A stretch of DNA of 64,000 nucleotides, taken from NCBI RefSeq assembly GCF_004339595.1, contig NZ_SMFU01000007.1, positions 1,176,658 to 1,240,657 on the forward strand, in the 5' to 3' direction. The position numbers and the translations under genes were made by a program. The notes beneath the pieces were generated by a model that had not been told where the DNA came from, searched no databases, and saw only the letters and a program-made list of their open reading frames with translations. Source of the stretch: Marinobacterium mangrovicola. GTDB taxonomy: Bacteria; Pseudomonadota; Gammaproteobacteria; Pseudomonadales; Balneatricaceae. Position 1 is the stretch's first letter. Each line of letters opens with the position of its first letter. Shown one piece after another: positions 37,201 through 41,424 of the stretch.

Positions 37201-37263
37201 TAACTAACTGTTGGGGAGGCATCCCCTCTAGGGATGCCTCCGATTAGGGGCTGCAGTTAGTTA
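37201..37263. repeat. Nested inverted repeat
   Basis: Outer arms TAACTAACTG (37201-37210) and CAGTTAGTTA (37254-37263) are perfectly complementary, and inside them GGAGGCATCCC (37215-37225) and GGGATGCCTCC (37231-37241) form a second perfect stem with loop CTCTA. The whole can fold into a long two-stem hairpin. It lies just beyond the 3' end of the amidotransferase gene. No T-run is present. Confidence 0.7.
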
Positions 37264-37284: not shown

Positions 37285-38004
37285 CTACACCCGGTCCAGC
37301 CAAGCGTTCATCACCGACAGGGCGAACTCGGTCTGAGCCTGCTGATGCTGATCGAAACCCACGGTAACCTTTTCGACAAGACGTGCGATCTCGTGCTGAT
37401 CCTTAGCCGGGTTATCGATCAGTTCGCGCCGGGTCCAGGTATCCACAATCTCCGGCGTCACCTCGAAGTGACACTGAAAACCGTAGATCTTCTCGCCAAT
37501 TCTGAACGCCTGATGGGTCACCTGATCGCCACTCATCAACAGCGTTGCCTGCTCTGGAAGCTCGAAGGTGTCCGAGTGCATCTCGAACAGTACCGGCTGC
37601 GCCGGCATCTCCTTCAGCAGCGGATCCGAGCGGCCTGCATCGGTCAACGACAGCGGGGTGAAGCCATATTCAAGGAAGCCCTGAGGGCGCACCTTGGCAC
37701 CAAATGCGTAAGCGATCGACTGGCAGCCCAGGCATGAACCCAGTATCGGTTTATCGGCTTCATAAAAGCGATGAATCAGTCCGGCCAGCTTATCGAAATA
37801 GGGTTTGAGCTCCGGGTCATGAACGCTAACCTCACCGCCGAACACAATCAGCGCGTCGTAGCCTTCGATCGATAACGGCAGCTCGTCCCCTTTCAGGCGA
37901 TAGAACCAGTGCAGTGCGCCGCCTCTGGCGCGGACCGCCTCGCCGATCCGCCCCGATTCCCGGTCGCCCTCCATGGAACCCGCCATGATAGCGGCGATCT
38001 TCAT
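37285..38004 (-). CDS. Class I glutamine amidotransferase-like protein
   Basis: 239-residue class I glutamine amidotransferase. The catalytic triad is Cys in ILGSCLGCQSIAYAFGA, and His/Glu in GFQCHFEVTPE; the fold is GMP-synthase-like (YfeJ group). In PuuD-type proteins the same fold hydrolyses gamma-glutamyl amides, which fits its place in an operon with a glutamine-synthetase-like ligase and a dioxygenase. The ATG at 38004 overlaps the PhyH stop (TGATG), with GGGAG upstream; an in-frame GTG three bases earlier is the alternative. Confidence 0.85.
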   Translation of the reverse strand: MKIAAIMAGSMEGDRESGRIGEAVRARGGALHWFYRLKGDELPLSIEGYDALIVFGGEVSVHDPELKPYFDKLAGLIHRFYEADKPILGSCLGCQSIAYAFGAKVRPQGFLEYGFTPLSLTDAGRSDPLLKEMPAQPVLFEMHSDTFELPEQATLLMSGDQVTHQAFRIGEKIYGFQCHFEVTPEIVDTWTRRELIDNPAKDQHEIARLVEKVTVGFDQHQQAQTEFALSVMNAWLDRV

Positions 38005-38864
38005 CACACCACTCCCTTCTCAAGGTATTCGTCGAGCCCCGGTGAACGGTAGCCATCTTCACGATAGACGATGGGGAAATGGCTCTCATCCACCACGTTG
38101 CTGCCGAACTTTTTATAGCGACCGTAGATGGGTCCATTACCGACGGTCATCTTTTCCGGGTTGTACTCGATATCGTCCTGGAAGTAGTGCATTGCCAACG
38201 AGCGACGCGGCACATCTGCCTGGTTGACCCTTGAACCGTGCCAGAGCCAGCCATCATGGAAAGCACCACCGCCCGGCGGAACTTCGATCGGCACCAGTTC
38301 CAGCTCAAAGCCGTTGGTATCCGCCCATTCACGCACCTCTTTGAGATCATCCTCAGGCCCGTGGAACTTCATGATCGGCTTGGCCTCACCCCACTTGTGC
38401 GAGCCGCGCACATAAACCAGTGTGCCGCCCTGAGCCGTTGTGTGATCCAGCGCCAGCCAGCAGCTGACAAGTTCCGGCTTATCGATCCAGAGCGAGTACA
38501 TGCTGTCCTGATGGAAGCCGATGGAGCGACCGTTGACCGGCTTCCAGAGCAGGTTGTCGACCATCAGGCGGCTGCCGGTCCAGCCACCAAGCTGGGCACA
38601 GGCGCGGCCCATGGACTCGGACATCACCTGACGAGCTACCGCCAGATCAGATTTCCAGGCGTTACAGATCTGCTTGGTATAGGGAGGATCACCCTCCGGC
38701 AGGTTAACCTCATCCGGTCGGATCCCGGTTTCATACTGGCCACTGAAGAGGCCTTCAAAGCGATCACGAATTTCAAGTGCTGCTTCCGGCTCAATAATCT
38801 TATCGACAATCAGGAAACCATCCTGACGAAACTGCTGAATCTGCTTTTCGCTAAGTTCGAGCAT
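38004..38864 (-). CDS. Phytanoyl-CoA dioxygenase-family 2-oxoglutarate/Fe(II) enzyme
   Basis: 286-residue PhyH-family non-haem iron oxygenase that would hydroxylate a small molecule using 2-oxoglutarate and oxygen. The iron facial triad is His-x-Asp in GFHQDSMYSLW and the distal His in DGWLWHGSRVN, with an Arg (PRRSLAMHY) for 2-oxoglutarate. The ATG at 38864 (MLELSEKQI) has GGGAG seven bases upstream; a longer start is rejected. It lies 14 bases after the glutamine-synthetase-like gene and overlaps the amidotransferase gene. Confidence 0.87.
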   Translation of the reverse strand: MLELSEKQIQQFRQDGFLIVDKIIEPEAALEIRDRFEGLFSGQYETGIRPDEVNLPEGDPPYTKQICNAWKSDLAVARQVMSESMGRACAQLGGWTGSRLMVDNLLWKPVNGRSIGFHQDSMYSLWIDKPELVSCWLALDHTTAQGGTLVYVRGSHKWGEAKPIMKFHGPEDDLKEVREWADTNGFELELVPIEVPPGGGAFHDGWLWHGSRVNQADVPRRSLAMHYFQDDIEYNPEKMTVGNGPIYGRYKKFGSNVVDESHFPIVYREDGYRSPGLDEYLEKGVV

Positions 38865-38878
38865 GACAAAACTCCCTA

Positions 38879-40261
38879 TCAATAAAAGGTCAGGTAACGG
38901 TTGAGTTCCCACTCGGAAACGGTGCTGTGGTACTCGTGCCACTCCTTACGTTTCATCTTCAGGAAACTGGCGACCAGGCGCTCGCCAAGTGCTTCACAGA
39001 GGAACTTGTCATCCTCCAGCGCATTCAGAGCATCGTTAAGGGTTTCCGGCAGACGCCCTACCCCGAGCTCATCCACCTGTGCCGGCGAAAGCTCATAGAA
39101 GTTGATGGCATGGGCCTCAGGCGCCGACAGCTCGCGATCCACACCATCCAGACCCGCCGCAATGATTGCAGCCACCGCCAGATAGGGGTTCATACTGCCA
39201 TCGCCAATGCGTACCTCGATGCGACCGTAGGGGATACGCAGCATCGCCGAGCGGTTGTTGTTGCCGTAGGTGATAAACACCGGTGCCCAGCTGGGGTTGC
39301 CCGGTGCGCCTCGGACAAGTCGCTTGTAGGAGTTCACGGACGGACACAGCAGTGCAGCCAGGGCCGGTGCATGCTCGATAACGCCGGCGATAAACTGATA
39401 AGCGGTTTTCGACAGCCCCATACCGCTGGGGTCGCTGTCATCCTGGAAGATGTTGTCGCCCTCAGCGTTTTCCAGAGAGCAGTGCACATGCATACCATTG
39501 CCGGTCGTGGTCGCGCTGAGTTTCGGCAGGAAGCTGCAGATACCACCCAGGCCGTTGGCCACCTCTTTAGCGGCCATCTTGAAGAACTGCATGTTATCCG
39601 CCGACTTGATCGCCTCGTCGTACTTGAAGTTCAGTTCGAACTGACCGTTGGCGTCTTCATGATCGATCTGATAAACATCCAGACCGATGCCGGCCAGCGC
39701 CTGATGCAGCCCCTCAATGAAGGGCGCATTACGGGTCAGGCCCTGATAATCATAGGCAGGCTTGTCCAGAGTGTCGGTATTGTCGAACGGAACAACCGAG
39801 CCGTTTTCATCCCGCTTCAGCAGGTAAAACTCAGGCTCCATCCCGGTCATAAAGCGCAGGCCGCGCTCGGCCAGGCGCCCGGTTTGAACCGCCAGCACAT
39901 TGCGCGAATCCAGTGGGAACAGTTCATCACCGACCCAGCCATGGCCACGGATGCAGGCATAACCGGGCAGCCAGGGCATCAGCGTGAGCGTGGAAAGGTC
40001 CGCCCGCATCATGTATTCGGGATCCTGGGGAGTCATATCGAAGCCCAGGACGGCCGCACCTGCGAAACCTGCTCCGGACTCGACCAGATCTTTCAGGCAA
40101 TGCACCGGAACCGCTTTACTTTTGATGCCACCGTGCATGTCGACGAATTGCGCGAGGATATATTTAACGCCGTGACGCTCCAGGAAGATATGCGCCTCTT
40201 CCAGTGCGTTTTCTGCCGGACAGTTCCAGACAGAGGCCAGGGTGTGAGGTTGAGTAGACAT
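38879..40261 (-). CDS. glnT: Type III glutamine-synthetase-like ligase (GlnT/gamma-glutamylamide synthetase family)
   Basis: 460-residue member of the glutamine-synthetase superfamily, GlnT type. It has EPEFYLLKRDENG and ANGQFELNFKYDEA (metal-binding Glu), TTGNGMHVHCSL (nucleotide/metal site), LVRGAPGNPSWAPVFITYG and RIEVRIGDGSMNPYLA. Relatives include gamma-glutamylmethylamide and other gamma-glutamylamide synthetases. Because it heads an operon with a dioxygenase and a PuuD-like amidotransferase, ligation of an amine to glutamate is more likely than ammonia assimilation. The ligated amine is unknown. Confidence 0.85.
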   Translation of the reverse strand: MSTQPHTLASVWNCPAENALEEAHIFLERHGVKYILAQFVDMHGGIKSKAVPVHCLKDLVESGAGFAGAAVLGFDMTPQDPEYMMRADLSTLTLMPWLPGYACIRGHGWVGDELFPLDSRNVLAVQTGRLAERGLRFMTGMEPEFYLLKRDENGSVVPFDNTDTLDKPAYDYQGLTRNAPFIEGLHQALAGIGLDVYQIDHEDANGQFELNFKYDEAIKSADNMQFFKMAAKEVANGLGGICSFLPKLSATTTGNGMHVHCSLENAEGDNIFQDDSDPSGMGLSKTAYQFIAGVIEHAPALAALLCPSVNSYKRLVRGAPGNPSWAPVFITYGNNNRSAMLRIPYGRIEVRIGDGSMNPYLAVAAIIAAGLDGVDRELSAPEAHAINFYELSPAQVDELGVGRLPETLNDALNALEDDKFLCEALGERLVASFLKMKRKEWHEYHSTVSEWELNRYLTFY

Positions 40262-40389
40262 TTGCTTCCCTCCTTTTGTTTGTGGGATGGAAGCAGTGTC
40301 TCAGTAAGTAGGCTTAACAGGTTTGACCGCTGAATACGGTCTTTTGACATTCGGTGCCAATCTGCCTGCCAGCAGATCGAGTCAGCAGA

Positions 40390-41424
40390 TCAGCGTGCCC
40401 GCCAATCGCTGGGAGAGAGATTTTTCCAGCGCATGAATGCGCGGGTAAACGCGGAGATTTCCGAATAACCCAACCGATAGGCCACCTCGGATATGCTCAG
40501 CCGATCATATTCCAGGTAATAGATCGCCAACTCCTCGCGAAGCTCATCGACCAGCACTTTAAAAGAGTACTGCTCAGCAGAGAGCTGGCGCTGCAAGCTG
40601 CGGCGAGACAGACTCATGCGCTGGGCCACCTGATCGATACTGGCACCGCCCTGCGGCAGCAGCTCGATAATTTCGCTGCGGGCTCGCTGGGCCGTTGAAA
40701 GCATCTGCGGGGCTGTACCGACCAGATCGGCAATGGTGCCGCGAACCACGTTGTTCAACATAGGATTGGCATCCGGCATCGGCCGGTCCAGGCAGCTCTC
40801 GCGGAACAGTATCTCATTGCGGGACTGCTGGAATTTAACCTCGCATCCGAACGCCTCACGATGCTGTGACGCATCCACCAGTGCAGGATGCTGGAAGTGA
40901 ATTTCCAGCGGAGCCCAACTCTCTCCCAGGGCGCGGCGCAATACATTATTGAACATGCCTATGGTCAGCTCGGCATCCTGGGTGCGATCGACAATATCGC
41001 CATCCAGCAGACGGTATTCCAGCTTGCAGATACCCTTTTCGACCTCGAAGTTCAGCAGGCTGTTGCGCTGGAAAACCTGGAAATAAGTTTGCATGCCGTC
41101 GATGGCGGAGCGCAGATCCGGTGCCGTCAGAGCTAAGTAGCCAAACAATCCGAGCCCTTCGGGGCTGAACTGCTCACCAAACCAGAGCCCGAAATGTTCG
41201 TTACCGGTCGAACGCGCAGCTTCGTGTATCGACTGACAGTAGCTGCTCAGCGGGATATGACGGTTCGGCTCCTGGTAGAGGCCCGGTTTCAAACCCGAAC
41301 GCGACAGAACCTGGCGACTGTTGCCACCCTGCCGATCGATGAACTCTTCAAGCCCCAAGGTGACTGACGCTAAAACACCGGAACAGGCCAGCGTCTGACG
41401 ATTCATGGAGTAAGACAAATTCAT
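40390..41424 (-). CDS. AraC-family regulator (OruR/ArgR-like ligand domain)
   Basis: 344-residue AraC regulator with an arabinose-binding-like N-terminal domain of the Pseudomonas OruR type (EHFGLWFGEQFSPEGLGLFG) and a C-terminal HTH domain (SIDQVAQRMSLSRRSLQRQL and SISEVAYRLGYSEISAFTRAF). The ATG at 41424 (MNLSYSMN) is used, as the longer frame has no ribosome site. It lies 128 bases upstream of the glnT-PhyH-amidotransferase operon on the same strand and probably controls it; the ligand could be the amine substrate. Confidence 0.86.
   Translation of the reverse strand: MNLSYSMNRQTLACSGVLASVTLGLEEFIDRQGGNSRQVLSRSGLKPGLYQEPNRHIPLSSYCQSIHEAARSTGNEHFGLWFGEQFSPEGLGLFGYLALTAPDLRSAIDGMQTYFQVFQRNSLLNFEVEKGICKLEYRLLDGDIVDRTQDAELTIGMFNNVLRRALGESWAPLEIHFQHPALVDASQHREAFGCEVKFQQSRNEILFRESCLDRPMPDANPMLNNVVRGTIADLVGTAPQMLSTAQRARSEIIELLPQGGASIDQVAQRMSLSRRSLQRQLSAEQYSFKVLVDELREELAIYYLEYDRLSISEVAYRLGYSEISAFTRAFMRWKNLSPSDWRAR

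Follow-up and report, generated by a model that had tools for sequence, protein, structure and literature searches.

Three consecutive genes on the reverse strand of a 64,000-nucleotide stretch of DNA from Marinobacterium mangrovicola (assembly GCF_004339595.1, contig NZ_SMFU01000007.1, positions 1,176,658 to 1,240,657; this whole stretch is the window analysed here) encode a ligase, an oxygenase and an amidotransferase-like hydrolase. Together, they probably degrade a short-chain primary alkylamine via gamma-glutamylated intermediates, through ligation, oxygenation and hydrolysis. The first gene (38,879..40,261, reverse strand; P0001, 460 residues) encodes a GlnT/GmaS-like gamma-glutamyl-amine ligase, which scores 565 bits against the NCBIfam model TIGR03105 (cut-off 469.6). 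After a spacing of 14 nucleotides, in which a GGGAG ribosome-binding site precedes the next start codon, follows the gene for a PhyH-type Fe(II)/2-oxoglutarate oxygenase (38,004..38,864, reverse strand; P0002, 286 residues; PF05721, 74 bits for a Pfam cut-off of 22). Its start is the ATG at 38,864, and the P0002 numbering used below includes two extra N-terminal residues. The third gene (37,285..38,004, reverse strand; P0003, 239 residues) shares one nucleotide with the second in an ATGA overlap and encodes a stand-alone class I glutamine-amidotransferase-like hydrolase (PF00117, 55 bits for a Pfam cut-off of 22.8). An earlier note on this DNA had described this trio, and the coordinates that it gave are exact.

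Beyond the trio, the locus has a regulator gene upstream and a hairpin after the last gene. The former (40,390..41,406, reverse strand; P0004, 338 residues) lies 128 bp upstream of the ligase gene on the same strand and encodes an AraC-family, QhpR-like protein with an arabinose-binding-like N-terminus and an HTH_18 domain (Pfam); it scores 322.8 bits against the NCBIfam model QhpR (NF049968, cut-off 250). QhpR is the regulator of the quinohemoprotein amine dehydrogenase operon, and in all seven trio genomes examined the best QhpR match adjoins the trio ligase. The hairpin, a perfect 11-bp inverted repeat just 3' of the amidotransferase gene (37,215..37,241, reverse strand), is a possible end of the transcription unit; it has no T-run and hence was not scored as an intrinsic terminator. 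Around it, nested inverted repeats at 37,201-37,263, with TAACTAACTG arms enclosing a GGAGGCATCCC hairpin, could be a small repeat element or serve as a terminator. At the other end of the operon, an inverted repeat of 11 nucleotides (40,263..40,295, reverse strand; 91%) spans the ribosome-binding site of the ligase gene, and a 468-residue open frame on the forward strand opposite this gene (38,927-40,333) most likely arises from codon bias. The host assembly comprises 4.98 Mb in 15 contigs.

Active sites of the ligase, the oxygenase and the hydrolase

While the earlier note compared the trio with the putrescine (Puu) pathway, the ligase is closer to GmaS than to PuuA. Its nearest entry in the PDB is the glutamate--methylamine ligase 9qur (550 bits), and it scores 300 bits with RhGmaS against at most 245 bits with ammonia-type enzymes. 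In RhGmaS, for which the residues of the methylamine site have been named, Ala48' replaces an Asp of glutamine synthetase (GS) and Trp300 the flap Glu, and the Michaelis constants are 27 µM for methylamine, 58 µM for ethylamine and 1.8 mM for propylamine, ethylamine being almost as good a substrate as methylamine and propylamine a poor one (PMC7948447). In the trio ligase, Ala67 replaces the ammonium-site Asp (Asp50') and Trp325 the Glu of the Glu-flap, and Lys49, Tyr170, Gln198, Asp200, Glu202, Glu209, Asn211, Trp325 and Arg337 are those of the substrate site and catalytic centre of RhGmaS. Indeed, all ten GmaS diagnostic sites are identical in 22 trio ligases and 14 GmaS proteins, but they differ in true GS and three further GS-like groups, among them the host's polyamine-type paralogues. 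Maximum-likelihood analysis groups the trio ligases in a single clade (support 100/99), sister to the GmaS clade and outside the group made of 9qur and the GmaS of N-methylglutamate (NMG) operons. Active-site residues and tree position thus designate, as far as sequence can tell, an amine ligase and not an ammonia ligase, in line with the earlier note. The family model itself, TIGR03105, bears the name type III glutamate--ammonia ligase and makes no distinction between GmaS and GlnT. Two other assignments were discarded: a true GS is ruled out by Ala67 and Trp325, and a putrescine ligase by the score against gamma-glutamylputrescine synthetase (NF045547, 257.9 for a cut-off of 650 bits) and by the wrong site residues. 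Since 12 positions separate the trio clade from the GmaS clade, two of them in the flap beside the Trp, the amine preference of the trio ligases may have shifted from that of GmaS. A further GS-like group was met in Methyloligella GL2 (L099:5820-8600), where two tandem GlnT-like genes encode Thr, Ser and Asp at the GmaS diagnostic sites; the tandem pair is also present in M. halotolerans.

Regarding the oxygenase, the metal triad (His120-x-Asp122 and His211) and the Arg binding 2-oxoglutarate (Arg222) are invariant in 18 aligned sequences. The fold of its structural model (mean predicted local distance difference test score of 63.8, good for the fold class and not for the substrate) matches 2-oxoglutarate oxygenases such as EvdO2, SnoN/SnoK, MysH and the proline hydroxylase H11. 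Its solved relatives are distant in sequence, with a best E-value of 6e-8, and its substrate therefore cannot be read from them.

In the amidotransferase, Cys91, His179 and Glu181 are invariant in 16 sequences, so that the active sites of all three enzymes appear intact. A plant gamma-glutamyl peptidase figures among its remote relatives, and its lack of a synthetase partner in the operon fits a hydrolase. Plasmid-borne matches to this protein had no ligase-oxygenase cluster in the three neighbourhoods inspected and hence are uninformative on function.

Conservation and genomic company of the trio

A scan of 84,980 species genomes returned 20 loci, 19 of which hold close PhyH relatives (68-99% identity). 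At 16 of these 19, ligase, PhyH and amidotransferase occur together, and 14 of the 16 also have the AraC gene and the same gene order. The two other full trios, from Acidocella, have a divergent amidotransferase and an XRE-cupin regulator replacing AraC. Among the three incomplete loci, two (Methyloligella) have PhyH without an adjacent ligase and one lies on a contig that ends inside PhyH. The order AraC-ligase-PhyH-amidotransferase was found in Marinobacterium, Amphritea, Oceanobacter, Neptuniibacter and Vreelandella, as well as in Oceanospirillaceae-type metagenome-assembled genomes and in one from Hydrogenophaga; the closest named PhyH relative is that of Marinobacterium lutimaris (99% identity). 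In the host's family, the trio ligase (at least 66% identity) and PhyH (at least 70%) are confined to one and the same set of 10 genomes out of 116, and 26 further genomes carry only a canonical GmaS (50-55%). No relatives were found among viral contigs. These counts, drawn from genomes that are related, include no phylogenetic correction. The trio, whose joint conservation the earlier note had left to be checked, is thus a functional unit in Gamma-, Beta- and Alphaproteobacteria, far beyond chance.

Genes outside the trio were mostly obtained by picking open reading frames and ranking them by codon composition, and only selected ones were scanned with profiles; for the other neighbours, the labels mgd, purU and hut reflect recognition of their sequences by eye. 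Among such neighbours, a spermidine/putrescine-like ATP-binding cassette (ABC) transporter and a gene of the histone deacetylase (HDAC) family, acetylpolyamine amidohydrolase-like, follow the trio in Acidocella (L035:8948-13899), whose XRE-cupin regulator is about 61-75% identical to one beside the ligase-free PhyH of the two Methyloligella.

The host also has an NMG operon (contig C2:362000-381900) with purU, mgd genes, gmaS, mgsC and folD, and most trio genomes likewise carry the NMG pathway; in the host, the trio thus constitutes a paralogous route. With methylamine already provided for, a second route for it would be superfluous there, which favours another amine. Five trio genomes are without the NMG synthase MgsC, and four of these have an Amt-family gene as fourth gene of the operon; an Amt gene stands behind the trio in genomes G031, G159, G161 and G164. 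The trio Amt genes fall into a single clade (100/100); the classified Amt genes closest to it lie beside eutBC (94/82), and the NMG-adjacent ones stand apart. The host's family counts 41 Amt genes of this subfamily, 26 of them near eutB, gmaS or the trio, and in the host eutB, eutC and amt are contiguous (contig C1, about 1397.5-1401.2 kb; L109:7519-11183). This subfamily, which adjoins eutBC or gmaS in many relatives as well, may comprise small-amine transporters annotated as ammonium transporters. Read from the NMG-lacking genomes, Amt could pass for a sign of methylamine alone; this is weakened by the many genomes, that of the host among them, in which the same subfamily adjoins eutBC. EutB itself is encoded in 18 of the 20 trio genomes and, within the host's family, in 8 of 10 genomes with the trio against 24 of 106 without it (p=0.0005). 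Neptuniibacter CAU 1671 is a strain that lacks the NMG pathway and in which no EutB was found.

Another cassette is found beside an Amt gene in M. lacunae (G153), where no EutB was found. There, Amt adjoins genes for a short-chain dehydrogenase/reductase, a class III pyridoxal phosphate (PLP) enzyme, which is lyase-like, and a 333-residue putative kinase (L115:4064-8917), the last being kinase-like by eye, with no NCBIfam match; this cassette may correspond to a phosphoethanolamine-type lyase route.

Candidate pathways for a short-chain amine

The three enzymes would act in turn. The GmaS-like ligase, consuming ATP, would join the amine to the gamma-carboxyl group of glutamate to form a gamma-glutamyl-alkylamide, whose alkyl group PhyH would oxygenate with O2, Fe(II) and 2-oxoglutarate; the hydrolase, through its Cys-His-Glu triad, would then cut the gamma-glutamyl bond, releasing the oxygenated amine and glutamate. 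Induction of the operon is probably the task of the AraC regulator, and the fourth gene in some species encodes an Amt-family transporter. That every full trio includes a hydrolase gene is in keeping with a product still bearing its gamma-glutamyl group. What we observe are the order and conservation of the genes, the families and catalytic residues of their products, the positions in the trees and the associations across genomes; the chemistry of each step, the identity of the substrate and which of oxygenation and hydrolysis comes first we infer. That the substrate is a C1-C2 primary amine can be proposed with good confidence, and ethylamine is preferred over methylamine with modest confidence. 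Ethylamine is hence our favoured single candidate, if a tentative one: gamma-glutamylethylamide would be converted into gamma-glutamylethanolamide and then into ethanolamine, from which EutBC, the enzyme that makes acetaldehyde and ammonia from this compound, would complete the route.

Such a logic has precedents. The earlier note knew of no three-gene pathway of this form; two described systems share its principle. For isopropylamine, in Pseudomonas KIE171 and Arthrobacter aurescens TC1, IpuC forms gamma-glutamyl-isopropylamide, which a P450 system converts into gamma-glutamyl-L-alaninol; L-alaninol is then held to be set free by an amidotransferase (PMC6776027, citing de Azevedo Waesch 2002). 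The combination of a GS-like ligase, an oxygenase and an amidotransferase is that of the trio operon, whereas the Ipu oxygenase is a multicomponent cytochrome P450 and the trio operon has PhyH and no P450 gene; this comparison draws on the published description of the pathway (PMC6776027). For aniline and 1-naphthylamine, the clusters AtdA1-A5 and NpaA1-A5 similarly unite a GS-like ligase (AtdA1/NpaA1), an amidotransferase-like hydrolase (AtdA2/NpaA2) and a Rieske dioxygenase (PMC11335346). These act on aromatic amines and have a protective hydrolase, whereas the trio operon is devoid of Rieske components. The trio ligase scores only 99.7 bits with the GS-like entry 8wwu, which we take to be NpaA1 and which lies on a distant branch.

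Three further systems share part of this logic. The Puu pathway (PuuA-PuuD) also proceeds by gamma-glutamylation, oxidation and hydrolysis by an enzyme of the amidotransferase fold, but the trio operon lacks an FAD oxidase (PuuB) and an aldehyde dehydrogenase, and its hydrolase belongs to PF00117 whereas PuuD is placed in PF07722. With the GmaS/NMG pathway the trio shares a ligase of the sister clade with all GmaS diagnostic residues; it differs by having PhyH and an amidotransferase and neither NMG synthase nor dehydrogenase, and the host has both systems. In Streptomyces, ethanolamine, likewise a C2 amine, enters a gamma-glutamyl route by way of GlnA4, and the cluster contains an amidotransferase gene (PMC6529630); its ligase is different, and dehydrogenases are proposed with no oxygenase.

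While the ligate-oxygenate-hydrolyse logic is known, PhyH in the oxygenase slot appears new: in the open-access literature, we found no report of PhyH joined with GmaS or an amidotransferase in an operon. We lean slightly towards PhyH, and not a P450, Rieske or flavin oxidase, oxygenating the gamma-glutamyl-alkylamide, whether in turning ethylamine into ethanolamine or in a third, oxygenase-based methylamine route by N-demethylation. If so, a simple single-component oxygenase would join a chemistry known with multi-component systems and could serve the production of amino alcohols from alkylamines. Methylated amines are a nitrogen source for marine bacteria, and methylamine use is surveyed with gmaS as a marker gene (PMC7948447). 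Such surveys would be inflated by a paralogous ligase clade with the same family model and residues and a different pathway, whatever its substrate.

Several observations weigh against the scheme proposed above, with ethylamine as favoured substrate, or narrow its reach. The ligase flap is unlike that of GmaS, with Pro323 and a one-residue deletion. EutB tracks canonical GmaS still more strongly than it tracks the trio, in genomes that are not independent: among GmaS-positive genomes there is no association between trio and EutB (6 of 7 against 21 of 26), and it persists only in the small GmaS-negative stratum (2 of 3 against 3 of 80, p=0.009). As a proof of ethanolamine, the association is hence weakened by confounding with GmaS. 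EutB was not found in the trio genomes G153 and G164. The Methyloligella PhyH (68-69%) has neither ligase nor amidotransferase nearby, and given its neighbours the substrate in Acidocella could differ. Finally, the M. lacunae trio is directly downstream of the NMG operon and followed by a different Amt, and that of G031 lies behind sarcosine oxidase and purU genes, two contexts that speak for one-carbon metabolism.

These last contexts favour a methylamine route, in which PhyH would hydroxylate the N-methyl group of gamma-glutamylmethylamide, the resulting hemiaminal giving glutamine and formaldehyde, and the amidotransferase would be a glutaminase or curb the build-up of the amide. The operon would thus be an oxygenase-based alternative to the NMG pathway, consistent with the retention of all GmaS substrate-site residues, with the operon Amt in four of the five genomes without MgsC, and with the methylotroph Methyloligella, in which PhyH without a nearby amidotransferase is as expected if hydrolysis is unneeded. 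However, the NMG pathway already exists in most trio genomes, the operon Amt groups with eut-associated and not NMG-associated transporters, and glutamine needs no dedicated hydrolase. Though the main rival of the ethylamine reading, this route is rather unlikely.

The amidotransferase could also do nothing but reverse the ligase to limit a toxic amide, the PhyH step alone giving the final product. AtdA2 indeed hydrolyses gamma-glutamylanilide back to aniline, a toxic-amide-limiting role described for it and proposed for the related NpaA2, which is dispensable for conversion (PMC11335346). For the Ipu pathway, by contrast, liberation of the hydroxylated amine is the role ascribed to the amidotransferase (PMC6776027). 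Between release and reversal, sequence does not decide, and we hold pure reversal to be unlikely.

It is improbable that the substrate is ethanolamine, another amino alcohol or a polyamine-like amine whose gamma-glutamylated form PhyH would oxidise further. The links of the Amt clade and of the trio genomes to eutBC, the polyamine-type transporter and HDAC-family hydrolase of Acidocella and the GlnA4 precedent, which has a gamma-glutamyl intermediate and whose cluster includes a gene for a glutamine amidotransferase (PMC6529630), would agree with it, but nearly all trio genomes already encode EutB, the ligase has the residues of GmaS and not those of the host's polyamine-type GS-like proteins, and the operon is without aldehyde dehydrogenase.

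Just as improbably, PhyH would act on an unrelated compound (glutamate, a free amine or a compound produced elsewhere) beside a separate amine-ligase module, as the diverse substrates of its family, its distant solved relatives, its location away from a ligase in Methyloligella and a 42-47% identical relative beside histidine-degradation-like genes might suggest, against which stand the tight gene spacing and the exact match between the 10 genomes, of 116, that have the ligase clade and those that have PhyH. This relative, from another genus of the family (L052:8031-8987 and L105:5170-6126), lies directly behind a hutF-like gene and near hutU- and hutH-like genes, and is followed by a gene for an ABC amino-acid-binding-like protein.

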